Of a DNA stretch of 64,000 bases, positions 1,746-64,000 are shown in pieces (within the stretch, counting starts at the first letter, position 1; each line of letters opens with the position of its first letter). The position numbers and the translations under genes are program-made. The DNA comes from an uncultured Sulfitobacter sp. (GTDB lineage Bacteria > Pseudomonadota > Alphaproteobacteria > Rhodobacterales > Rhodobacteraceae). Under the pieces are notes generated by a model, which saw only the letters and a program-made list of their open reading frames with translations, was not told where the DNA came from and ran no database searches. The stretch lies in NCBI GenBank assembly GCA_947502265.1, contig CANMZB010000005.1:62001-126000 (forward strand). The letters are read 5' to 3'.

Positions 1746-1787
1746 TTGACCGAAATCAACATGCGGTCGCGCGCGTTGGGCTATCTG
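1746..1787 (+). promoter_or_regulatory. FNR/FixK-type box and -10 element in the 436-base gap before the fabI-like operon
   Basis: Positions 1746-1759 read TTGACCGAAATCAA, that is TTGAC-N4-ATCAA, matching the FNR/FnrL consensus TTGAT-N4-ATCAA at 9 of 10 fixed positions. A -10-like TATCTG lies at 1782-1787. This puts a predicted start near 1794 and centres the box at about -41.5, the classic class II FNR activator position. The rest of the gap (1464-1899) shows only a weak hairpin after the response regulator (1462-1475) and no convincing gene. FNR-family proteins activate such promoters under low oxygen; regulation here is inferred from the site alone. Confidence 0.65.
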
Positions 1788-1899
1788 ATGTAAACGCTCC
1801 ATCCGCTCGGAAAGGCTCAGGCAATGACGAACATCCCCTTAACGGGCAAATACTCCATGCGATGCATCGGGCAACCATGTATTTCAGGAGTAGCCGAAA

Positions 1900-2670
1900 G
1901 TGATTGAGAACCTTCTAAAAGGCAAACGGGGCCTTATCGTTGGCGTTGCGAACAGGCATTCAATCGCCGCGGGATGCGCCGTGGCCTTTCGCGCGGCGGG
2001 GGCCGAGCTTGCGATGACCTACGTCGACGAGAAATCGAAACCTTTCGTCGCCCCCGTCGCTGCCAACCTTGACCCCGCGCTCTTCCTGCCGCTGGATGTC
2101 GAGGTCGACGGCCAGATGGAAGCTGTTTTCGAGGCGATCGAGCAGAAGTGGGGCAAGCTTGATTTCGTTCTGCATTCGATCGCCTATTGCCGCAAGGATG
2201 ATCTGCACGGCCCTGTCAGCGCCTGCTCGAAAGAAGGCTTTGCGCAGGCGATGGATGTTTCGGTGCATTCCCTGATCCGCATGACTCGCCTTGCGATTCC
2301 GTTGATGAAAGACGGCGGCAGCATCCTGACGATGAGCTATTTTGGCGCGGAAAAGGTCATCGACAATTACAACATCATGGGGCCGGTTAAATCGGCGCTG
2401 GAAGGAACGGTGCGATATCTGGCTGCCGAACTTGGCCCGAAACAGATCCGTGTCAACGCCATCTCGCCCGGACCTTTGCAAACGCGCGCCGCATCGGGCA
2501 TCGCCCATTTTGACGAACTGATCGACGCCGCGCGCAATCGTGCGCCCGGACAGACACTGGTGACGCTCGAAGATGTCGGTCACATGGCAACCGGGCTTGT
2601 CAGCGACCTGTCCCGTAACGTCACCGGCAATATCGCCTATGTCGATGCAGGTTATCATGTGCGAGGCTGA
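1900..2670 (+). CDS. fabI: FabI-like enoyl-ACP/acyl-CoA reductase (SDR family)
   Basis: The 256-residue protein has the FabI layout: N-terminal GVANRHSIAAGCA nucleotide motif, HSIAY at 92-96, and the catalytic Tyr147, Tyr157 and Lys164 in the YNIMGPVK segment, then PGPLQT. FabI reduces trans-2-enoyl thioesters with NADH. It starts with GTG at 1900, placed by CAGGAG at 1885-1890. It differs from housekeeping FabI at conserved spots (Arg where Asp or Lys-Arg follows GVAN; Cys in the HSIAY-C-RKDD loop), which suggests a specialised paralogue. It is followed after 42 bases by a hydratase/phosphotransacylase and a kinase, so CoA-linked enoyl substrates are plausible. The family is certain; the physiological substrate is inferred. 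Confidence 0.85.
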   Translation: MIENLLKGKRGLIVGVANRHSIAAGCAVAFRAAGAELAMTYVDEKSKPFVAPVAANLDPALFLPLDVEVDGQMEAVFEAIEQKWGKLDFVLHSIAYCRKDDLHGPVSACSKEGFAQAMDVSVHSLIRMTRLAIPLMKDGGSILTMSYFGAEKVIDNYNIMGPVKSALEGTVRYLAAELGPKQIRVNAISPGPLQTRAASGIAHFDELIDAARNRAPGQTLVTLEDVGHMATGLVSDLSRNVTGNIAYVDAGYHVRG

Positions 2671-2712
2671 CAGCCGCGCGACCTTTCCCATTCCTTTCAT
2701 AGGGCCAACCAG

Positions 2713-4110
2713 ATGAAATTCATCGAGAACAAGACGTTTGACGAGATCAAAGTAGGCGACAGCGCGGATTTGACCCGCGAGTTGACGCCGAAGGACATCA
2801 AGATGTTTGCCGTCATATCGGGGGATGTTAATCCGGCGCATGTCGATGCGGATTACACCCAATCCGACATGTTTCACAAAATCATCGCGCACGGTATGTG
2901 GGGGGGCGCCCTGATGTCTACGGTTCTGGGGACAGAGCTGCCCGGCCCCGGCACGACCTATGTCAGCCAGAATCTGAACTTTCGCAAAGCTGTTTGTTCG
3001 GGCGATACCGTGACCGTACGGGTGAGCGTGTCGCACAAAGACCCCGAGCATCATCATGTGACGCTGGATTGTCTGTTCGAAAACGAGACCGGCGAAACCG
3101 TAATCGAAGGTCACGCGGTAGTGTGCGCGCCAACCGAAAAGATCCGCCGCCCGCGTGTGGTCCACCCCGAGTTGCCTTTGCAAGAGACCGGTGCACGCTT
3201 TGACCGTCTGATCCACGCGACAGCATCGCTTGATCCTGTGCGCACCGCCGTTGTCCATCCCTGTGATGCCCTCTCCCTTGAGGGGGCGCTTGAGGCCGCT
3301 GCGCGCGGCATCATCGTTCCGGTGCTTGTCGGACCACGGACCAAAATCAAAGCGACCGCCGTAGAATGCGGGCATGATCTGGCGGGGATCGAGATTGTGG
3401 ACGTGCCCCACAGCCATGCCGCCGCCGAAAAGGCCGTGGCACTGGCGCGCGCGGGTCATGTCGGCATGTTGATGAAGGGAAAGCTGCACACGGATGAACT
3501 GCTTGCGGCGGCGGTGAACAAACAAACCGGTCTGCGCACCGAGCGGCGGATGACCCATGTTTTTGCCCTCGATGTGCCGAACTATGCCAAACTGCTGATG
3601 ATCACCGATGCGGCAATCAACCTGTTTCCCGACCTGACCGCCAAACGCGACATTGTGCAGAACGCCATTGATCTGGCGCTGGCTCTTGGTGTTCCTGTGC
3701 CAAAGGTCGCATTGCTGTCGGCAGTCGAGACCGTGACACCAAAGCTGCCCGCTACTCTGGACGCGGCGTCATTGTGCAAAATGGCGGATCGTGGCCAGAT
3801 TACCGGTGGCATTCTGGACGGGCCGCTGGCCTTTGACAACGCGGTGTCCAAGGCCGCCGCCGAGACAAAGGGCCTTCACTCTGCGGTTGCGGGGGATGCC
3901 GATATTTTGCTGGCCCCCGATCTGGAGGCCGGAAATATGATCGCCAAACAGCTGATTTATCTGGCAGGTGCGGATGCTGCCGGCATCGTTCTGGGCGCGC
4001 AGGTTCCGATTGTTCTGACCAGCCGCGCGGATGGTGTGATGGCGCGCCTCGCCTCTGCTGCAATGGCCCAATTGTTCGCGCACCATCAAAAAACGGGGAT
4101 CACGACATGA
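2713..4110 (+). CDS. Bifunctional (R)-enoyl-CoA hydratase / phosphate acetyl- or butyryltransferase
   Basis: This 465-residue fusion has an N-terminal MaoC/PhaJ hot-dog domain (about 1-145). The (R)-hydratase active pair is Asp38 and His43 in SGDVNPAHVD, followed by AHGMWGG. A C-terminal phosphotransacylase domain (PTA/PTB family, about 170-465) follows, with late motifs such as DGPLAFDNAVS and APDLEAGNM. The first domain interconverts (R)-3-hydroxyacyl-CoA and trans-2-enoyl-CoA; the second exchanges CoA for phosphate. The fusion sits between an enoyl reductase and an acyl kinase, whose start overlaps its stop by 4 bases. The C-terminal domain is closer in size to phosphotransbutyrylase than to long Pta proteins, so acyl-chain preference is open. 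Confidence 0.88.
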   Translation: MKFIENKTFDEIKVGDSADLTRELTPKDIKMFAVISGDVNPAHVDADYTQSDMFHKIIAHGMWGGALMSTVLGTELPGPGTTYVSQNLNFRKAVCSGDTVTVRVSVSHKDPEHHHVTLDCLFENETGETVIEGHAVVCAPTEKIRRPRVVHPELPLQETGARFDRLIHATASLDPVRTAVVHPCDALSLEGALEAAARGIIVPVLVGPRTKIKATAVECGHDLAGIEIVDVPHSHAAAEKAVALARAGHVGMLMKGKLHTDELLAAAVNKQTGLRTERRMTHVFALDVPNYAKLLMITDAAINLFPDLTAKRDIVQNAIDLALALGVPVPKVALLSAVETVTPKLPATLDAASLCKMADRGQITGGILDGPLAFDNAVSKAAAETKGLHSAVAGDADILLAPDLEAGNMIAKQLIYLAGADAAGIVLGAQVPIVLTSRADGVMARLASAAMAQLFAHHQKTGITT

Positions 4111-5288
4111 GCGAAGCTCTCCTGACGCTAAACGCCGGATCATCAAGCCTGAAATTTGCGGTCTTTGACGCGGATGCGCCATCCGACACGGCAGAAATCA
4201 GCGGCAAGATCGAAGGTATCGGGCGCGCACCTGTCTTCTCTGCGCGCACCGCAGATGGCACTGCGCTTGATAAATCCGCGCTCGAAACGCTCGATGTTGC
4301 GGCAGGCCATGATCAACTGATCCCGCAACTGCTGACGTGGCTTGACCACCATCTGGCAGAGCGTTCGGTGGTGGGCGTGGGTCACCGCGTGGTTCACGGC
4401 GGGCGCAACTTTAGCACGCCGACACTTGTTGACGACAGTGTCTTGCAACAGCTGGAGGCCCTTACCCCGCTTGCTCCCCTGCACCAGCCGCACAACCTTG
4501 CGGCGATCCGCGCCGTCGCGGCATGGCAGCCGGACCTGCCGCAGATTGCCTGTTTCGACACCAGTTTTCACAGCACACAGGACCGGCTGGCCAAGTTGTT
4601 CGCCCTGCCCCGTGCATTGAGCGATGAAGGCATCATCCGCTATGGCTTTCACGGACTTTCCTATGATTACATCGCCAGCGTCCTGCCACAGCACCTTGGC
4701 GCGCGGTCGCAAGGCCGTGTCGTTGTGGCGCATCTGGGCAACGGCGCCAGCATGTGCGCGATGAAAGACCACAAAAGCGTCGCAACAACCATGGGTTTTA
4801 CCACGCTCGACGGGTTGATGATGGGCCGTCGCAGCGGCACGATTGATCCGGGCGTCATCCTGTACCTGATGCAGTCAAAAGGCATGGATGCGGCCGAAAT
4901 AGAGACACTTCTTTATCGAGAATCCGGTCTTTTGGGCGTGTCGGGGATCAGCAACAACATGCAGGTGCTATCCAGCAGCCCCGAGGCCGGGGCGCAGGAA
5001 GCGATTGATCTGTATTGCCACAAGGCGGCCAGTCACCTTGCCGCCCTCCTGCCTGCCATTGGTGGGCTTGACGCGATCGTGTTCACGGCAGGGATCGGAG
5101 AGAATTCCGCCGCTGTGCGCGCGGCAATCACGAACCGTCTTGCATGGCTTGGCGTTGAATTAGACGCGCGCGCGAACGCGGCAAACGACACAAGGATCAG
5201 CAGCCCCGCGTCAACCGTTGACGTCCTTGTGGTGCCGACGAACGAAGAAGCAATCGTGGCAAAGGCGTGCCGTCAGGTTCTGGCATAA
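4107..5288 (+). CDS. ackA: Acetate/propionate/butyrate kinase family
   Basis: The 393-residue cytoplasmic kinase makes ATP from acyl phosphate and ADP. It shows the ASKHA signatures of acetate kinase: NAGSSSLKFAVF at the N-terminus, GHRVVHGG, HLGNGASMCAMKD, the TTLDGLMMGRRSGTIDPG loop and FTAGIGENS near the C-terminus. The ATG overlaps the phosphotransacylase stop (ATGA), so the two are translationally coupled, and acyl phosphate made by one would feed the other. Length is typical for AckA. Butyrate or propionate are possible substrates given the (R)-hydratase and enoyl reductase in the operon. The next gene is convergent and ends 10 bases after this stop. Confidence 0.92.
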   Translation: MSEALLTLNAGSSSLKFAVFDADAPSDTAEISGKIEGIGRAPVFSARTADGTALDKSALETLDVAAGHDQLIPQLLTWLDHHLAERSVVGVGHRVVHGGRNFSTPTLVDDSVLQQLEALTPLAPLHQPHNLAAIRAVAAWQPDLPQIACFDTSFHSTQDRLAKLFALPRALSDEGIIRYGFHGLSYDYIASVLPQHLGARSQGRVVVAHLGNGASMCAMKDHKSVATTMGFTTLDGLMMGRRSGTIDPGVILYLMQSKGMDAAEIETLLYRESGLLGVSGISNNMQVLSSSPEAGAQEAIDLYCHKAASHLAALLPAIGGLDAIVFTAGIGENSAAVRAAITNRLAWLGVELDARANAANDTRISSPASTVDVLVVPTNEEAIVAKACRQVLA

Positions 5289-5298
5289 ACGCGCCGGA

Positions 5299-5919
5299 TC
5301 AGCCGGAGGCTGATACCACATGATCGCCATCAATCCCGCCCAGCGACTGGAAAAGCGCGCTCGTATTGTTGACCCCGAACTTGCGCAGCAGCTTGGCGCG
5401 GTACACTTCGACCGTGCGGTGCGATATTTCCAGTTTCCGGGCGATTTCCTTGCTGGTCAGCCCGTCCGACAGATAGCTCAGGATTTCACGTTCGCGCCGT
5501 GTCAGCGCAAAATAAGGACGTTCTTCGCTCAGATCGGCAAAGCTCCAGACGGCGCGCGCCAGCGGGGCATCGGGCGTAAAGGAATGGCCCCGCACACGGC
5601 ACCAGAACAACGTGCCGCCCTTGCGCGCCATGATGCGTTCGTCCCAATACCGGTTCGTCTCGCGTAACTGCTTCACGCCACGGTCGCGGATGTTCGAAAA
5701 CTCCTCGTCAGAGGGATACAGGATCGCAAAAATCTCTCCACACAGATCGTCGGGCGCATAGCCGAACATCTGCGCAAAAGCGATATTGCAGGCACGGATC
5801 ACGCGATTTTCGGTCACCACCAACCCGACCGGCGCATAGGTGAAGGCAAGGTCGGCAAAGCGCCCTTCCTCATAGCAATCGTCGATAGGTATTTTCACGA
5901 TCTTGCCACAACTCACCAA
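5299..5919 (-). CDS. PAS domain LuxR-family transcriptional regulator
   Basis: This 206-residue regulator has an N-terminal PAS domain (about 20-130: FTYAPVGLVVTENRVIRACN, AQMFGYAPDDLCG, the conserved FWCRVRG strand) and a C-terminal LuxR/NarL helix-turn-helix (about 138-195: LTRREREILSYLSDGL, SKEIARKLEISHRTVEVYRA). There is no receiver, so a PAS-bound signal is the likely input. It is divergent from the ABC transporter operon starting at 5997 and shares a 77-base promoter gap with it, making it the probable regulator of that transporter. No N-terminal signal or membrane segment is seen. The effector is unknown. Confidence 0.88.
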   Translation of the reverse strand: MVSCGKIVKIPIDDCYEEGRFADLAFTYAPVGLVVTENRVIRACNIAFAQMFGYAPDDLCGEIFAILYPSDEEFSNIRDRGVKQLRETNRYWDERIMARKGGTLFWCRVRGHSFTPDAPLARAVWSFADLSEERPYFALTRREREILSYLSDGLTSKEIARKLEISHRTVEVYRAKLLRKFGVNNTSALFQSLGGIDGDHVVSASG

Positions 5920-10880: not shown

Positions 10881-10925
10881 GTAGACGTGGTGAACAGCGC
10901 TGAAATAACAGCGAAGATTTGCCCG

Positions 10926-12590
10926 ATGCCCCCTTTCCCAACCTGCTCCGCGCGTTTTGCCAATTGGCGCAACGGCGCGGCTGTCTCGCCTTTGATGCTG
11001 CTTGTCCTGACGATCATCTTTCTCTTTGCCGCGGATAACGCGACATTCTGGTCCATCGGTAGCAAGATTTTCGCAGGGCATCCCCTGTCTTTCGTAGGGT
11101 ATATGTTGGCGGTCCTCTTCCTGACGCTCGCTGCTTTCAGCCTGTTCGGGTTCCCCTGGATCGTAAAGCCGTTTCTGATCTTTATCGTGACGCTGAGCGC
11201 GATCACGTCGTACTATATGGATCGTCTGGGCGTGATCATCGACCGCGACATGATCCAGAATGTCATGGTAACCACATTTGCGGAATCCAGACATCTGATC
11301 ACCTTGGGCTTTGCCACGCATGTATTGCTGTACGCCATATTGCCCGCAATCCTGATCCTGTCGGTCAGGATCAAGCGCCAAAGCATGACCAGAACCGTCG
11401 CCCTACCGGTACTCACCTTCGGTCTCAGCCTCGCACTCGCCACAGGGTTGTTGATGACGGACCTGAAATCCTATGCATCGATCCTGCGCGAGCGCAAAGA
11501 CTTTATGAGCAGCTTTCAACCCGGTGCGCCTCTCGTGGGGGTCATCCGCTATGCCAGAATGATGTCACGCACCGTTAACGTCACCGTTGCAGCAATTGGC
11601 GAGGATGCGCAAAAGGGGCCGTCCTACCATGCAGGCGGCAAGCCTGTCCTGACCATCATCGTTGCAGGCGAAACGGCACGCGCACAAAACTTTAGCCTCA
11701 ATGGCTACGGCGTTGAAACCAATCCGAAACTTGCAAAGCTTCCCGTGGTGAGTTTTGATCAGACAAGCTCTTGCGGGACAGCCACTGCGGTATCTTTGCC
11801 TTGCATGTTCTCCAATTTCGATCGGAACGGCTATACTTACGAAAAGGGGATCTCGCACGAAAACCTGCTGGATGTTCTAAGCCACGCGGGCCTTCATGTG
11901 GAATGGTGGGATAACAACACGGGCGACAAGGGGCTTGCCGACCGCGTTGTCTCGCTCGCGTTTACGGATACGCAAGGTGCGGAATTCTGTACCGCCGGTG
12001 AGTGCACAGACGGTATCTTTCTGGAGGCGCTGAAAGAGTACGCCGATACGATCACCGAGGATACCGTTCTGGTGCTGCATCAGATCGGCAGCCACGGGCC
12101 AACGTATTATCTGCGCTATCCCGAAACGTTCGAGCGGTTTTCCCCTGCCTGCCGCACAGCGGAGTTCAAGAACTGCACGCCTGCGGAAATCACCAACGCC
12201 TACGACAACACCATTGCCTATACCGACGAAAATCTGGCGCAGATCATAGCGCTGCTGCAATCACAAAACCGGCTGTCCACCGCATTGCTCTATGTCTCGG
12301 ATCATGGGGAATCTCTGGGCGAAAGCGGGCTGTACCTGCACGGAGCGCCCTATTTTATGGCACCCGCGTATCAAACCAACGTTCCGATGATCCTGTGGAT
12401 GTCCGGGACATTCAAAAACCAGTTCGGCATTGATCACGAATGCCTTGCCGCCAAGAAAAGCAGCGCGCTGTCGCATGATAACCTGTTCCATTCTGTTCTC
12501 GGGATGCTGGATATTCGAACAGATGAACACCGCCCGTCAATGGATGTGTTCACGCCCTGCAAGGGGCAACAGAAGGTTGCAAGCAATTGA
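10926..12590 (+). CDS. eptA: Phosphoethanolamine transferase (EptA/MCR family)
   Basis: The protein of about 554 residues has five N-terminal membrane segments (to about residue 190) followed by a periplasmic alkaline-phosphatase-fold domain. The nucleophile is the Thr codon at 11673 in [16 protein letters not shown], with the preceding Glu as a zinc ligand; Asp-His of SDHGESLGE (codon 12300) are further ligands. Paired cysteines ([26 protein letters not shown]) match the family disulphides. These enzymes move phosphoethanolamine from phosphatidylethanolamine to lipid A and release diacylglycerol. GTG codons at 10887/10890 are alternative starts, but they lie only 6-9 bases after the direct repeat. 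It is the first gene of a six-gene operon. Confidence 0.92.
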
Positions 12591-12988
12591 AACACGACAC
12601 TTCCGCCCGCCGTGCCAAACCTGCGCGGATCACTGGCCCCGCTCATGTTATTGCTGCGGCTGGCTATTCCATCAGCGGTGTACAAAGACTGTGGCAAGAG
12701 ACGGCGTTCCGGCATATTACACTGGCAATTCCCGTCTGCGTTGCCGTTCTGGCTGTCGTTGGTGCCGGATTTGTCGATTACTGCACCTTGTTTATCCTGA
12801 TCTCGTGCCTTGTTGCGGTAGAGGCGTTGAACACGGCCATCGAGTGTATTGTCGACCATCTGGCACCGGACTGGGAAGAATTCGCGCGCGATGCAAAGGA
12901 TCTGGGATCACTTGCGACGATGTGTTTGCTATGTGCCAATGGTGTTTTCATGGGCACTGTTCTATATCGTGCCTTTGCTCTGACCTGA
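12587..12988 (+). CDS. dgkA: Diacylglycerol kinase (DgkA)
   Basis: This 133-residue small integral membrane kinase phosphorylates diacylglycerol to phosphatidic acid. It has the DgkA signature: [14 protein letters not shown] followed by AKDLGSLA, matching the E. coli EILNSAIEAVVDR and AKDMGSAA catalytic segments, and three hydrophobic helices. Its TTG start overlaps the eptA stop (TTGA), so translation is coupled. EptA releases diacylglycerol as by-product, so this kinase is the natural scavenger. DgkA next to phosphoethanolamine transferases is known from mcr-3 and related loci. Confidence 0.92.
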
Positions 12989-13002
12989 AAGAAAGTAAAC
13001 CG

Positions 13003-13695
13003 ATGAACATGATCAAGATCGTTGCGGTGCCCATGCACAATGAGGGGCGCAAGTTCGTTGCGATCTTTGCGGGCATAACCGTTTTGCTTTCCTTCTTGTG
13101 GGAACCGCTTTTCTGGCTTGGGCTGGGTGCCACTGTCTGGTGCTACTATTTCTTTCGCGATCCGGTGCGCGTCATTCCCCAGCAAAAAGGGCTGGTTCTG
13201 TCGCCCGCCGACGGGATCGTTTCCCTGATCGAAGATGTCGTTCCCTCCGCCGAGCTGGATCTTGGCAACGCGCCGCTGACGCGCGTGTCGGTGTTTATGA
13301 ACGTCTTCAACTGCCATGTGAACCGCGCGCCGCTTGCGGGTAAAATCATTGCCGTCAACTATCGCCATGGCAAGTTCGTGAATGCGTCGCTGGACAAAGC
13401 CAGCGAACACAACGAACGCAACAGCATCACAATCGAGGCCGAAGACGGCGCGCGGATCGGGGTGGTCCAGATTGCGGGCCTTGTTGCGCGCCGGATCGTC
13501 TGCTTTGTAGGAGTGGGCGATGGCGTGGGTGTTGGACACCGCTTTGGCCTTATTCGTTTTGGCAGCCGTCTGGATGTCTATCTGCCCAAAGGGGTCTCGC
13601 CACTGGTTGCCGTTGGGCAAACAGCTGTCGCAGGTGAAACTGTCCTCGCCGATCTGGCTGATCCGACCCGGCAGCGCACGGGCATCGCTGAATGA
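13003..13695 (+). CDS. psd: Phosphatidylserine decarboxylase proenzyme
   Basis: This 230-residue protein is the short (archaeal/alphaproteobacterial) type of Psd. It makes phosphatidylethanolamine from phosphatidylserine. Self-cleavage is expected at Gly187-Ser188 in [11 protein letters not shown], making the pyruvoyl group on the alpha chain. Other family segments are FRDPVR, SPADGIV and [13 protein letters not shown]. One or two N-terminal hydrophobic segments (about 18-47) anchor it. The ATG at 13003 begins just before the family N-terminus, 14 bases after dgkA. The stop overlaps the next gene's start. Confidence 0.93.
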
Positions 13696-14432
13696 CGGCT
13701 CCGTCGCACATCAAGCTGAGGCACATTGTGCCCAGCGTGGTCACCGTGTTCGCGATCTGCGCCGGAATGACCTCTGTCCGGATGAGCCTTGAGGGCCGCC
13801 TTGAAACCGCGCTTTATTTCATCCTGCTGGCTGTGTTTCTGGATGCCGCTGATGGCAAGCTGGCCCGTTTTCTGGACACCGCCAGCCCCTTCGGGGCCGA
13901 ACTTGACACGCTTGCCGATTTCTTCAACTTTGGCATCGCGCCGGGCCTGTTGCTTTACAACACGCTGTATCTCGGCACCGCCCATGCCAGTCTGGGATGG
14001 TTGGCAACGTTGGTCCTCGCGGTGTGCTGTGCGCTCCGGCTGGCAAGGTTCAACCTGTCGGTAAAGTCACCTGACATTACGTTAAAAAAGGACGATCATT
14101 TCGTCGGCGTTCCCGCACCTGCGCTTGCCTGTCTCGCCTTGATGCCGGTCTACATGCATCTTCAAGGGTGGCAGACCACCGATCTTCCGGTTCTGCGCGC
14201 GTTCTATATTATCGGCATCGGGATGTTGGCGGTCAGCACGATCCCAACAATTTCCATCAAGCACGCCAAGATCCGCCGCGCCCATCTGCCATTCGTCATC
14301 GTAGCGGCTGTCGTTCTTGTTGTTTGCCTTATGGTTTATCCATGGCCCACGCTTATCGTCGGAAACTTTCTTTATCTGCTATCCATGCCGTTCTCCTATT
14401 TTTCCCATCAAAAGCGGATAAAGGCATTATAG
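13692..14432 (+). CDS. pssA: CDP-diacylglycerol--serine O-phosphatidyltransferase
   Basis: This 246-residue membrane enzyme makes phosphatidylserine from CDP-diacylglycerol and serine. The complete CDP-alcohol phosphotransferase motif is present: Asp54-Gly55, Ala58-Arg59, Gly68, Asp72 and Asp76. Six to eight hydrophobic segments follow. The ATG overlaps the psd stop by 4 bases. The psd-pssA order is common; what is unusual is their placement between dgkA and a two-component system in an eptA operon. A TCS gene follows after 7 bases. Confidence 0.93.
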
Positions 14433-28674: not shown

Positions 28675-29633
28675 GCCTGCCCGTCGTCCTGACCTGCGGG
28701 GAACCGGCTGGCATCGGGCCCGAGATCGCCGCGCGCGCGTGGGCCGCGCTGGCGGATCGTGTGCCGATGATGTGGCTCGGTGATCCGCGCCATCTGCCAA
28801 CGGACATTCCACATCAGGTGATCGCAACCCCCGCACAGGCAGCAGAGATCTGCACCCGCGCCCTGCCGGTTCTTGCCCATCCTTTCACAAGCAAGGCCAC
28901 CCCCGGCACGCCCGACCCCGCAAATGCCCAAGGTGTTATTGACGTAATCGCCCGCGCGGTCGATCTGGTCAGCACCGGACAAGCCGCCGCGATTTGCACG
29001 GCGCCGATCCACAAGAAAGCTCTGAAAGACGGTGCCAGTTTCGCCTATCCGGGGCATACGGAATACCTTGCCGCTTTGGCGGGCGGCTGTGACGTGGTGA
29101 TGATGCTCGCCTCCGAGCAGTTGCGCGTGGTGCCGACGACGATTCACATCCCGCTAGAGGACGTCCCACACGCCCTGACGCCCGCATTGCTGCGGCGCAC
29201 AATCGAGATCACCCACAATGGCCTGCGCGACCGGTTCGGCGTCGATGCGCCGCGCCTCGCGATCAGCGGTCTCAACCCCCACGCGGGCGAAGGCGGTGCA
29301 ATGGGGCGGCAAGAGCTTGACTGGATCGCCCCGCTTGTCGTTGAAATGCAGGCTCAAGGTTTCAATCTGCGTGGCCCCCTGTCCGCCGATACAATGTTCC
29401 ACGCGGCTGCGCGCGAAACATATGACGCCGCCATCTGCATGTACCACGATCAAGCATTGATCCCGATCAAAACGCTGGACTTCGATCGTGGCGTAAACAT
29501 CACGCTGGGCTTGCCTTTTATCCGCACCTCGCCCGATCACGGCACGGCCTTCGATATTGCGGGCAAAGGCATCGCCACCCCCTCGAGCATGATCGAGGCC
29601 ATTCGCATCGCCCACAGGATGGCCGCAGCATGA
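28671..29633 (+). CDS. pdxA: 4-hydroxythreonine-4-phosphate dehydrogenase
   Basis: The 320-residue enzyme belongs to the DXP-dependent pyridoxal phosphate pathway. The family motifs are [55 protein letters not shown] and [16 protein letters not shown]. The metal-binding His residues lie in GHTEY, NPHAGE and SPDHG. The ATG at 28671 overlaps the surA stop (28672-28674). The rsmA start overlaps its stop. Confidence 0.95.
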
Positions 29634-46846: not shown

Positions 46847-47632
46847 TTAAAGGGCGGTCCAGCCGCCATCGACGCTTACGGTGGTACCGGTGATCTGGTC
46901 TGCCGCAGCCGAACACAGGAAGGTCGCCGTACCACCCAACTGTTCTACCGTGGCAAACTCTTTTGACGGCTGGCGCGTGAGCATCACATTCTCGATCACC
47001 TCTTCGCGGGTCATGTTGTACTCTTTCATCGTATCGGGAATCTGTTTCTCGACGATGGGAGTCAGCACGTAGCCCGGACAAATGGCATTGGCGGTGATCG
47101 GTTCCTGCGCCGTCTCAAGCGCCGTTGTTTTCGTCAGCCCGACAATCCCGTGCTTGGCCGCGATATAAGCCGACTTGAACGGTGATGCCGTCAACCCGTG
47201 CGCCGACGAGATGTTGATCACCCGACCCCACCCCGCGCGGCGCATCATCGGCAGCGCGACAGCAGTGGTATGAAAAGCAGAGCTGAGATTGATCGCAATG
47301 ATCGCGTCCCACTTTTCGACCGGAAAATCGGGAATCGCGGCAACGTGCTGGATACCGGCGTTGTTGACCAGAATATCGCAAACGCCGGCCTGTTCGATCA
47401 GCTTGCGGCATTCATCGCCTTTGGACATGTCCGCTTTGATATAGCGCGCTGTTACACCTGTCGCGTCGGCGATTTCTTTGGCCAAAGCGTGGTCTTCGTC
47501 ATTGTCGGTAAAGGAGTTCAGAACGATGTTCGCCCCCGCCTGCGCCAGCGTGCGCGCAATGCCAAGACCGATTCCGGAGTTTGATCCCGTGATAACAGCA
47601 GTTTTTCCGGACAGATCGATAGTAAAGGCCAT
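46847..47632 (-). CDS. bdhA: 3-hydroxybutyrate dehydrogenase
   Basis: This 261-residue SDR enzyme interconverts (R)-3-hydroxybutyrate and acetoacetate with NAD. It has GSNSGIGLGIARTLA, NNAGIQHV, Ser142/Ser143 and the catalytic Tyr156-xxx-Lys160 in SAYIAAKHG, plus NAICPGYVLTPIVEKQIPD. BdhA-type features are IQHVAAIPDFP and a C-terminal DGGWTAL. The start at 47632 has a strong AGGAGG just upstream; a longer frame to 47722 lacks one. It connects to PHB/ketone-body metabolism. Confidence 0.93.
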   Translation of the reverse strand: MAFTIDLSGKTAVITGSNSGIGLGIARTLAQAGANIVLNSFTDNDEDHALAKEIADATGVTARYIKADMSKGDECRKLIEQAGVCDILVNNAGIQHVAAIPDFPVEKWDAIIAINLSSAFHTTAVALPMMRRAGWGRVINISSAHGLTASPFKSAYIAAKHGIVGLTKTTALETAQEPITANAICPGYVLTPIVEKQIPDTMKEYNMTREEVIENVMLTRQPSKEFATVEQLGGTATFLCSAAADQITGTTVSVDGGWTAL

Positions 47633-47748
47633 GACGGCGCCTCCTGATTGTGGGTAATACGCCGCTACTTTATGCCGCGACGCTGCCAGGATGGGAATGC
47701 ACAAAGCCGCGCGCATACGCATGCAAGAAGCCGCAAAATGCTCGTGCC

Positions 47749-61643: not shown

Positions 61644-64000
61644 ATGGCTTTGGTTTTCCGCTGGCTCGTTCGTGTGGCCGCCGCCCTTATTGTGCTGAGC
61701 GTGATCACGATCAGCCTTGTCTACTGGCTCGCCTCGCGCTCGCTGCCCCAGTATAATGCCCAAATCACGGTGCCTAACCTTTCGCAGCCGGTCGAGATTG
61801 TGCGTGATAACGCCAACGTGCCGCATATCTTCGGACAAAATGACGAAGACGTGTTTTTCGGCCTTGGTTTTGCCCACGCCCAAGACCGGCTGTGGCAGAT
61901 GACCACCTTGCGGCGCACCGCACAAGGGCGCCTGTCGGAGGTGTTTGGCGCCTCGACGCTGGATGTGGACAAGCTCTTGCGCCGGTTCGATATTTACTCA
62001 TTATCAGTGGCCTCGGTCGAGGCGCTGGACGCGTCCACGCGCAGCGCGCTTACGGCCTATGCCGCAGGTGTGAACGCGCGGCTGGACCAGATCAACGCGC
62101 AGGCGCTGGGACGCGGCGCGCCCGAAATGTTCCTGTTTAACGCCCCGATGGCGCCATGGCGCCCCGCCGACAGCATCGCCATAATCAAACTGATGGGCCT
62201 GCAACTTTCCGGCCATCTGGACGCAGAAGTACTGCGCGCGCGGGTTTCGCTGGCCTTGCCCGATGACCAGCGCCTGCGCGATATTCTGCCTGATGTGCCG
62301 GGGCCGGGTGTGGCTGCCCTGCCCGCCTATGCAAGCCTGTTTCCCACCGTTCCGCGCCATGCGGCCAACATCCCGCTTGATCCGCATCCGCTGTCGCCGT
62401 TCCGGCACACGGCATTGGCAGGCGCTTCGAACGCGTGGGCCGCCGCCCCTTCGCGCTCCGCTTCCGGCGGAACGTTGCTCGCCAATGATCCGCATCTGGG
62501 CTTTACCGCGCCCGCAGTCTGGTATCTTGCGCGGCTCGAATTACAAGACGGAGGGGTGATAGGGGCCACGATTCCGGGCATCCCCGTCGTGCTGACCGGT
62601 CGCTCTGCCGATCTGGGCTGGGGGCTTACGTCCTCCTACATGGACGATCAGGACGTTTTCATCGAAGAGCTGAACCCCGCCAACCGCGAAGAATACCGCA
62701 CGCCCGACGGCTTCAAAAAGTTCCTGACCCGCGCGTCGATCATCACGGTCAAGGACCGTGATCCCGTCACCCTTACCCTGCGCTGGTCTGACAACGGCCC
62801 GGTCCTGCCCGGCTCCCACTACAACCTTGCCAGCATCACACCACCCGGCCATGTGGCAGCCCTGTCATGGACGGTGCTAAGCCAGCGCGACACCACAATG
62901 CAGGCCGCAATGCAGCTGATGCGCTCAAAGACGGTGGCCGAGGGGATCGAAGCGGCAAGCCTTTTTGTTGCGCCGTCGCAAAACCTGATGCTGGTGGATC
63001 GCGATACGGTCGCCATGAAAACCATCGGAGCCGCCCCCAAGCGCGATCCAGACCACCAAAGCCAGGGCCGCCTGCCCAGTCCCGGCTGGATCGCGGCAAA
63101 CCGCTGGCAGGGGATTGCGCCTTATGCGTCCAACCCCGGCTTTGTGGCACCCGAGGGTGGTATTCTTGGCAATACCAATAACAAGATGATCGACCGCGCC
63201 TTTCCCAACCATATTTCGTTTTTGTGGGGCGACACCCAACGGATAAAACGCTGGCAGCGGCTGATGCAGGGCCGTCAGGTTCACACCCGTGACAGCTTTA
63301 TCGAGGCGCAGCTTGATACGGTCAGCTATACCGCCCGTTCGCTTTTGCCGCTCATCGGCGCGGAATTGTGGTTTACCGGCGAGGCGGCCCCCGAGCGTTC
63401 CCCTGAACGTCTGCGCCAGCGCGCACTGGCGTTGCTGGCGGAATGGTCAGGCGAAATGAACGAGCATCTGCCCGAGCCGCTTATCTATGCCACATGGCTG
63501 CGCGCACTTCAGGACCGTCTGATCCGCGATGAACTTGGCCCGCTGGCCGAAGAATTCGACCACGTCGAACCTCTCTTCATCGAACGTGTCTTTCGCGATG
63601 TGGAAGGGGCAAGCGCGTGGTGCGATGTGTTCCAGTCCGCCCCGGTGGAAACATGTGCCGATATGGCGCGACTGGCGCTGGATGACGCGCTTGTCGAGAT
63701 CGACGAGAAATACGGCACAGCGCTTGAATCCCTGCGCTGGGGCGATGCGCATCAGGCCACCCATGATCATCCGGTTCTGGGCAACGTTCCGGTGCTGCGA
63801 TACTTCGTCAACATCCGGCAAAGCACGTCAGGTGGCGACAACACCCTGATGCGCGGTCGCACCAAAGGCACCGACCCCGACCCGTTCCAGAACGTACATG
63901 GCGCGGGCTATCGCGGGGTTTATGATTTCGCCGATCCGGACAGTTCGGTTTTTGTCACCTCCACTGGGCAGTCGGGTCACCCGCTGTCACGGCACTATGA
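61644..64000 (+). CDS. Penicillin-acylase-type Ntn hydrolase (3' end outside window)
   Basis: The frame stays open to the right edge, so only the first ~785 codons are present. It begins after GAAAGG with a membrane-anchor segment (residues ~6-30, RWLVRVAAALIVLSVITISL) and then an alpha chain (LAFAHAQDRLWQ-type GFAHAQDRLWQMTT at about 74-87). The autocatalytic junction and nucleophile are Ser262 in AGASNAW. Downstream are LLANDPHLGF, GWGLTSSYMDDQD and GNTNNKM, as in the penicillin G/AHL acylase family. Substrates may be beta-lactam side-chain amides or acyl-homoserine lactones. It is divergent from the dehydrogenase gene. The start is a good ATG; the C-terminus is unknown. Confidence 0.9.
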   Translation, partial: MALVFRWLVRVAAALIVLSVITISLVYWLASRSLPQYNAQITVPNLSQPVEIVRDNANVPHIFGQNDEDVFFGLGFAHAQDRLWQMTTLRRTAQGRLSEVFGASTLDVDKLLRRFDIYSLSVASVEALDASTRSALTAYAAGVNARLDQINAQALGRGAPEMFLFNAPMAPWRPADSIAIIKLMGLQLSGHLDAEVLRARVSLALPDDQRLRDILPDVPGPGVAALPAYASLFPTVPRHAANIPLDPHPLSPFRHTALAGASNAWAAAPSRSASGGTLLANDPHLGFTAPAVWYLARLELQDGGVIGATIPGIPVVLTGRSADLGWGLTSSYMDDQDVFIEELNPANREEYRTPDGFKKFLTRASIITVKDRDPVTLTLRWSDNGPVLPGSHYNLASITPPGHVAALSWTVLSQRDTTMQAAMQLMRSKTVAEGIEAASLFVAPSQNLMLVDRDTVAMKTIGAAPKRDPDHQSQGRLPSPGWIAANRWQGIAPYASNPGFVAPEGGILGNTNNKMIDRAFPNHISFLWGDTQRIKRWQRLMQGRQVHTRDSFIEAQLDTVSYTARSLLPLIGAELWFTGEAAPERSPERLRQRALALLAEWSGEMNEHLPEPLIYATWLRALQDRLIRDELGPLAEEFDHVEPLFIERVFRDVEGASAWCDVFQSAPVETCADMARLALDDALVEIDEKYGTALESLRWGDAHQATHDHPVLGNVPVLRYFVNIRQSTSGGDNTLMRGRTKGTDPDPFQNVHGAGYRGVYDFADPDSSVFVTSTGQSGHPLSRHY

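Follow-up and report, generated by a model that had tools for sequence, protein, structure and literature searches.

We analyzed a three-gene operon in a 64,000-nucleotide stretch of DNA from an uncultured Sulfitobacter sp. (the whole stretch, hereafter the window, is positions 62001–126000 of contig C5 in a 4.55 Mb draft genome). The operon encodes a FabI-type enoyl reductase, a fusion of an (R)-enoyl-coenzyme A (CoA) hydratase with a phosphotransacylase, and an acetate/propionate-family kinase. An oxygen sensor probably controls it, and it probably drains the building blocks of a storage polymer to a short-chain acid, making ATP and consuming NADH. More specifically, we see an even chance that at low oxygen it takes (R)-3-hydroxybutyryl-CoA to butyrate with formation of ATP. 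In this scheme, falling oxygen would cause the regulator FnrL to turn on the operon from a box at 1746–1759. The hydratase domain would convert (R)-3-hydroxybutyryl-CoA, a precursor or breakdown product of poly-3-hydroxybutyrate (PHB), to crotonyl-CoA, which the accessory FabI would reduce with NADH to butyryl-CoA; the transacylase domain would swap CoA for phosphate, and the kinase would move the phosphate to ADP, yielding butyrate and ATP. Overall, the PHB pool would gain a minor fermentative outlet in which NADH is re-oxidized and one ATP is made. The features that can be read directly are the genes with their family and clade assignments, the presence of fnrL and the box, the linkage of related operons to polyhydroxyalkanoate (PHA) synthases, and the loss of a presumed contact to acyl carrier protein (ACP); the substrates, cofactor, direction of flow and physiological role are inferred.

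Gene layout and oxygen control

The operon and its upstream elements are arranged as follows.

1746–1759, + strand: FNR/FnrL box TTGACCGAAATCAA, a perfect match, 140 bp 5′ of the FabI start codon
1782–1787, + strand: weak minus-10-like element TATCTG, at a spacing common to related operons
1900–2670, + strand: fabI-type accessory enoyl reductase with a GTG start, a putative NADH-dependent crotonyl-CoA reductase (NF005717, 415.5 bits)
2713–4110, + strand: fusion of an (R)-enoyl-CoA hydratase (MaoC/PhaJ type) with a butyryltransferase-like phosphotransacylase (NF006045, 734.6 bits)
2722–3147, + strand: hydratase domain with an intact D-x-N-P-x-H motif (GDVNPAH); residues 4–145 match 5cpg
3187–4095, + strand: phosphotransacylase domain; residues 159–461 match NF008852
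4107–5288, + strand: acetate/propionate-family kinase (TIGR00016, 370.5 bits), the only one in the genome

All three reading frames are open at these coordinates, with 42 bp between fabI and the fusion gene and a 4-bp overlap between the fusion and kinase genes. Each product exceeds a curated family cut-off: 415.5 versus 337 bits for the reductase (NF005717, PRK07533), 734.6 versus 282 bits over residues 2–462 for the fusion (NF006045; Pfam MaoC and PTA_PTB) and 370.5 versus 293.4 bits for the kinase. The three-gene, FNR-box operon of the original prediction is thus borne out.

The window contains two perfect TTGA-N6-TCAA sites, and this box is the first of them. Since one-mismatch sites number 22 against 20.9 expected, the loose pattern is not enriched there; the other perfect box (29457–29470) lies inside pdxA, shortly before ksgA, and is probably a chance occurrence. 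Genome-wide, a stricter box, TTGAYNNNNRTCAA, gives 38 sites compared to 3 for a reversed control, with copies at hemN/fnrL, at ccoN and at one gene further down the cco region, so that the FNR motif can be taken as real in this genome. The fnrL gene itself (NF045989, 386.1 bits; cut-off 300) is flanked by hemN and ccoN, and both of these have boxes. The presence of both fnrL and the upstream box supports membership of the operon in the FnrL regulon, with induction predicted at low oxygen.

Comparison with related operons extends this picture. We assembled 99 loci, namely the window, 80 from GTDB genomes (at least 80, among the matches listed), 11 from other genomes and 7 from plasmids, all picked for nearness to the window's protein (~55% identity or more), such that near-duplicates may be present. 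The nearest named organisms by fusion protein, among the matches listed, are mostly Rhodobacterales. Of the 40 operons with linked phaC or fabI, 12 have an exact box in the 350 nt upstream, compared to 1 of the 59 others (Fisher p = 6e-5), and a control pattern is found in none of the 99. Allowing one mismatch, the counts rise to 25/40 and 14/59 (control 5 and 2). Among boxes with T or C as first base (19 boxes in 18 operons), a TA starts 21 or 22 nt past the box in 14 of the 19, while other offset pairs away from it reach at most 4. This spacing fits an FNR site centred at −41.5. The TATCTG of the window at 1782–1787 is a weak minus-10 match, and a generic promoter scan reported nothing at the 1746 box. 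The low-oxygen control originally proposed is therefore supported by fnrL, the box and the common promoter spacing. Comparable regulation is on record for PHA synthase genes: phaC2 of H. seropedicae drops 100-fold in a triple fnr mutant (PMC5862806), and phaC2 of B. diazoefficiens is a FixK2 target (PMC10888616).

Several features surround the operon. The next gene (5299–5919, − strand), which converges on it, encodes a LuxR-type regulator with a PAS domain and without a receiver domain. At 4–474, the window edge truncates a methyltetrahydrofolate:corrinoid methyltransferase-like gene, of which only the tail is included. An EptA-type phosphoethanolamine transferase, a phosphatidylserine decarboxylase and a PssA-like synthase adjoin at 10887–14432, an arrangement suggestive of a link between lipid A decoration and the supply of phospholipid. 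Rfam models at gathering threshold gave no matches in the 64 kb window.

An accessory FabI clade

The genome encodes three FabIs. The two outside the operon are 47% and 45% identical to the operon enzyme, and one of these is directly behind the end of a gene that we take to be a ketoacyl synthase. The idea that the operon enzyme might be the sole FabI of the cell, which belonged to the first half of the case that the original prediction had named as fatal to its proposal, can therefore be rejected. In a tree of 44 rows, for which 21 of 32 housekeeping FabIs were left out and the program warned of long branches, the operon FabIs together with S. meliloti FabI2 split (100/98) from the 11 housekeeping FabIs.

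After removal of one of the 33 operon FabIs (L066, 64 residues), 32 were aligned, and residues are numbered as in E. coli K-12 FabI. The catalytic Tyr156, Met159 and Lys163 are kept in all 32. Position 204 differs: it is Arg in 32/32 housekeeping FabIs, 30 of which (the genome's own on contig C1 and 29 relatives) came from a search with a single gene and so are not independent, whereas the operon FabIs have Asp in 27, Glu in 2, Asn in 2 and Gly in 1 (acidic in 29/32, basic in none). The FabI of the window has Asp here, instead of the basic residue expected of an ACP-linked housekeeping enzyme. A second set of 25 FabIs behaves similarly, with a non-basic residue in 14/14 clade members (3 of them repeats of the first set) and a basic one in 10 of 11 others. 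Lys201, Arg204 and Lys205 are presumed ACP contacts in the E. coli enzyme; our literature search gave no supporting paper. The clade-wide loss of the presumed contact lends support to a CoA-linked paralogue, as originally suggested. The atypical HSIAY loop put forward with that suggestion was rejected as a marker, because ordinary FabIs can likewise have Ala in place of Gly93; the informative difference is the one at position 204. A CoA-specialized paralogue would be chemically easy, because E. coli FabI can already serve as an enoyl-CoA reductase in engineered reverse β-oxidation (PMC9118988).

The FabI family also co-occurs with its operon partner. In a set of 98 genomes, the FabI family exceeds its cut-off in 16 (two of these FabIs, G059 and G092, look housekeeping-type at position 204), the fusion/transacylase family does so in 20, and both do in 10; that is, the latter family is found in 10/16 genomes with the FabI family versus 10/82 without (Fisher p = 5e-5). 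One contig of 4.62 Mb (G084, C1) has a clade FabI of equal score near both ends (14101 and 4607437), perhaps through assembly overlap.

An ordinary enoyl-ACP reductase, a low-oxygen isozyme of fatty acid synthesis co-transcribed by chance, would also retain the catalytic residues, and the relatives are annotated as enoyl-ACP reductase FabI. With two housekeeping FabIs already encoded and an acidic residue replacing the presumed ACP-contact Arg in 29/32, we regard this explanation as very improbable. Annotated clusters are labelled enoyl-ACP reductase and phosphate acetyltransferase, labels that may misstate the substrate.

Linkage to PHA synthases and choice of substrate

A link to PHB had originally been drawn from bdhA. 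This gene is indeed in the window (46847–47722; TIGR01963, 357.8 bits, cut-off 307), but at ~42 kb from the operon it is the weaker basis; the stronger one is a same-strand phaC near the fusion in 34 of the 99 loci. A same-strand fabI is nearby in 33, and both are in 27. The GYCLG active-site box was found in 33 of the 34 linked phaC, and four cluster-linked synthases reach 540–556 bits with the class I PHA synthase model, short of its curated cut-off of 622.65. Clustering of the neighbours of all 99 loci returned phaC and fabI as partners, followed by an nrdJ-like gene and local chromosomal neighbours; several clusters are antisense artefacts of open reading frame picking. A conserved PhaB partner was rejected, as PhaB-like matches occur in 5/99 loci, one of which is the query itself and two of which are only ~34–35% identical; the other query, from Legionella anisa, matched itself.

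The order phaC-fabI-fusion-ackA is found on annotated plasmids of Sulfitobacter SK012, Aestuarium (where a small additional gene separates fabI from the fusion), Paroceanicella and Tateyamaria, and the Paracoccus seriniphilus plasmid version is missing the kinase. Salinivibrio resembles the window in having the three genes but no phaC, and fabI is located 3′ of ackA in Sphingobium, Legionella anisa and Paracoccus yeei. In Sulfitobacter SK012 (L138, 1–3855), a second F0F1-ATPase operon is oriented away from the phaC-containing one.

The fusion protein is consistent with a C4 substrate. The closest solved relatives of its halves are PhaJ (5cpg) and a phosphate butyryltransferase (7vg9). The transacylase half scores 304.2 bits with the phosphate butyryltransferase model TIGR02706 versus 59.5 with the pta model TIGR00651, and its solved relatives rank alike (7vg9, 230 bits; 1td9, 55). 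By sequence, this half is closer to butyryltransferases than to acetyltransferases.

Linkage to phaC (34/99 loci) would also suit assimilation, in which the kinase and transacylase spend ATP to activate acetate, propionate or butyrate and the hydratase feeds PHA synthesis. In established FabI chemistry, an NADH-type enoyl reductase runs toward the saturated acyl-CoA, opposing a flow from butyrate to PHA, and an ATP cost at low oxygen fits poorly with FNR control. We therefore judge assimilation unlikely here, even though it is the published reading for Burkholderia (PMC8231600) and for the Cobetia kinase route (PMC8686332).

Less likely again is direct release, whereby the transacylase would act on (R)-3-hydroxybutyryl-CoA to give 3-hydroxybutyrate and ATP with no reduction step. 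A linked fabI is missing in many loci, bdhA is present in the genome, and the clostridial Ptb-Buk pair reportedly acts on 3-hydroxybutyryl-CoA in engineered E. coli; in this genome, however, direct release would give the linked FabI no role.

Several observations weigh against a route to butyrate. Fifteen of the 40 phaC/fabI-type operons have no box even at one mismatch, and thus FNR control is common, not universal. Six clade FabIs are unlinked to other operon genes in the stretches read, so the change at position 204 tracks the clade and not operon membership. While fabI, fusion and ackA are adjacent in the window, phaC is not in the cluster: the nearest synthases are two related phaC on contigs C13 and C6 (542 and 534 bits) and a canonical phaC on C11 (728.6 bits). 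The fusion and ackA alone, with no linked fabI or phaC, make up 50/99 loci. The hydratase dyad is intact in 34/34 phaC-linked and 4/6 fabI-only loci, but its retention is weak evidence because it is also intact in 54/59 loci with neither gene. The transacylase half falls below the TIGR02706 cut-off (304.2 versus 410.5 bits).

The weakest link of the butyrate route is the kinase step, because the enzyme belongs to the acetate/propionate family and has acetate-pocket residues. It scores only 38.6 bits with the butyrate kinase model TIGR02707 (cut-off 289.1). Of the residues that form the acetate pocket in M. thermophila, Val93, Leu122 and Phe179 are conserved, and Pro232 is replaced by Thr; Val93, which would limit substrate size, is present in the kinase of the window and in 87/87 aligned relatives, one of 88 linked kinases (≤300 residues) having been dropped before the count. 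Position 232 is Pro in 5/5 printed alignments to solved kinases and Ala, Thr or Ser in 86/87 operon kinases. We rejected this change as a C4 marker: those kinases that were read from Azospirillum, Ruegeria and S. meliloti have Ala as well, which makes it a clade trait.

These features fit an acetate route, in which acetyl-CoA would be converted at low oxygen to acetate and ATP, and the hydratase and reductase would only tune the crotonyl-CoA/PHB pool. The kinase is the single match to the acetokinase family in the genome and may also serve acetate. The genome's only stand-alone Pta adjoins a sulfoacetaldehyde acetyltransferase, and two further matches fall within long open frames (766 and 778 codons). 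In Azospirillum, the hydratase Asp is replaced by Asn in 3/3 species read, with pflB nearby in two and a formate transporter and enolase in the third; in Shinella, a phosphoketolase is beside the fusion, whose hydratase dyad is intact. Such neighbourhoods suggest acetate, and an S. meliloti relative was published under a phosphotransacetylase/acetate kinase title. The acetate route does not explain why the transacylase is butyryltransferase-like and fused to an intact (R)-hydratase, or why phaC and fabI are linked, and we consider it possible but doubtful. The C4 route of the original prediction accordingly comes through in part: the reductase clade and the transacylase favor it, while the kinase family and the relatives beside pflB or phosphoketolase do not. 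We continue to prefer the butyrate branch, with the transacylase and kinase probably also taking acetyl groups. Crotonyl-CoA has other uses in this genome, which has a crotonyl-CoA carboxylase/reductase (624 bits).

Contig C6 of the same genome (L164, 7483–18460) groups its PhaC2-type synthase with arcA (arginine deiminase), which has upstream FNR boxes, and a frame that we take to be atpD-like. It is possibly a second low-oxygen energy cluster.

Comparison with known systems

PHB is usually viewed as a reserve that cells oxidize when oxygen is available. If true, a butyrate branch would bear on how respiring bacteria get through oxygen gaps. In a more tentative extension, which we offer as a possibility, the FabI clade would be a dedicated NADH-dependent crotonyl-CoA reductase and, with the PhaJ-transacylase fusion, the kinase and a PhaC2-type synthase that cleaves the polymer with CoA rather than extending it, would form an FNR-controlled PHB-to-butyrate fermentation across respiring Proteobacteria. 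It would also supply a candidate gene for the conversion of crotonyl-CoA to butyryl-CoA in Ralstonia eutropha, which under microaerobic conditions reduces crotonyl-CoA by an enzyme reported as unidentified; a mutant additionally without phaB2-phaC2 still ran the pathway (PMC10788006).

The clostridial butyrate pathway consists of Hbd, Crt, Bcd/Etf, Ptb and Buk. Its flow is the same as that proposed here, from 3-hydroxybutyryl-CoA to butyrate and ATP. The window would use the (R)-isomer with MaoC, FabI and an AckA-family kinase, in contrast to the (S)-isomer with crotonase, Bcd/Etf and Buk.

The anatomy of the operon is not new, as phaC-fabI-(phaJ/pta)-ackA clusters are present in many Proteobacteria and the cluster is in print for Burkholderia sensu lato, for Cobetia/Halomonas and for H. 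seropedicae, where phaC2 is in one operon with pta-ackA (PMC8222739). The Burkholderia D1/D2 clusters, phaC-(phaJ/pta fusion)-ackA-fabI, share the fusion, kinase and fabI with the window and differ in having phaC within the cluster; the paper calls the fusion unusual and reads the cluster as acetate metabolism feeding PHA (PMC8231600). Cobetia marina and Halomonas sp. SF2003 have phaC1-fabI-bi-pta-ackA, with the gene content and order of the window, and H. bluephagenesis TD01 has fabI-bi-pta-ackA with phaC1 elsewhere, which is the split layout of the window; the available passages of this account mention neither FNR control nor butyrate (PMC8686332). S. meliloti ORF-pta-ackA-fabI2, where ORF denotes an open reading frame, resembles the window in encoding a transacylase, a kinase and a FabI of the same clade, likewise with Asp at 204, but its transacylase is not fused to a hydratase; it is reported to be induced by phosphate starvation via PhoB (PMC8231600). 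Our literature search, with most subscription journals outside its coverage and sources seen in part, found no proposal that the cluster makes butyrate. Compared to these systems, the gene arrangement is already known, and what is new here is the clade-wide loss of the presumed ACP contact and the common promoter spacing.

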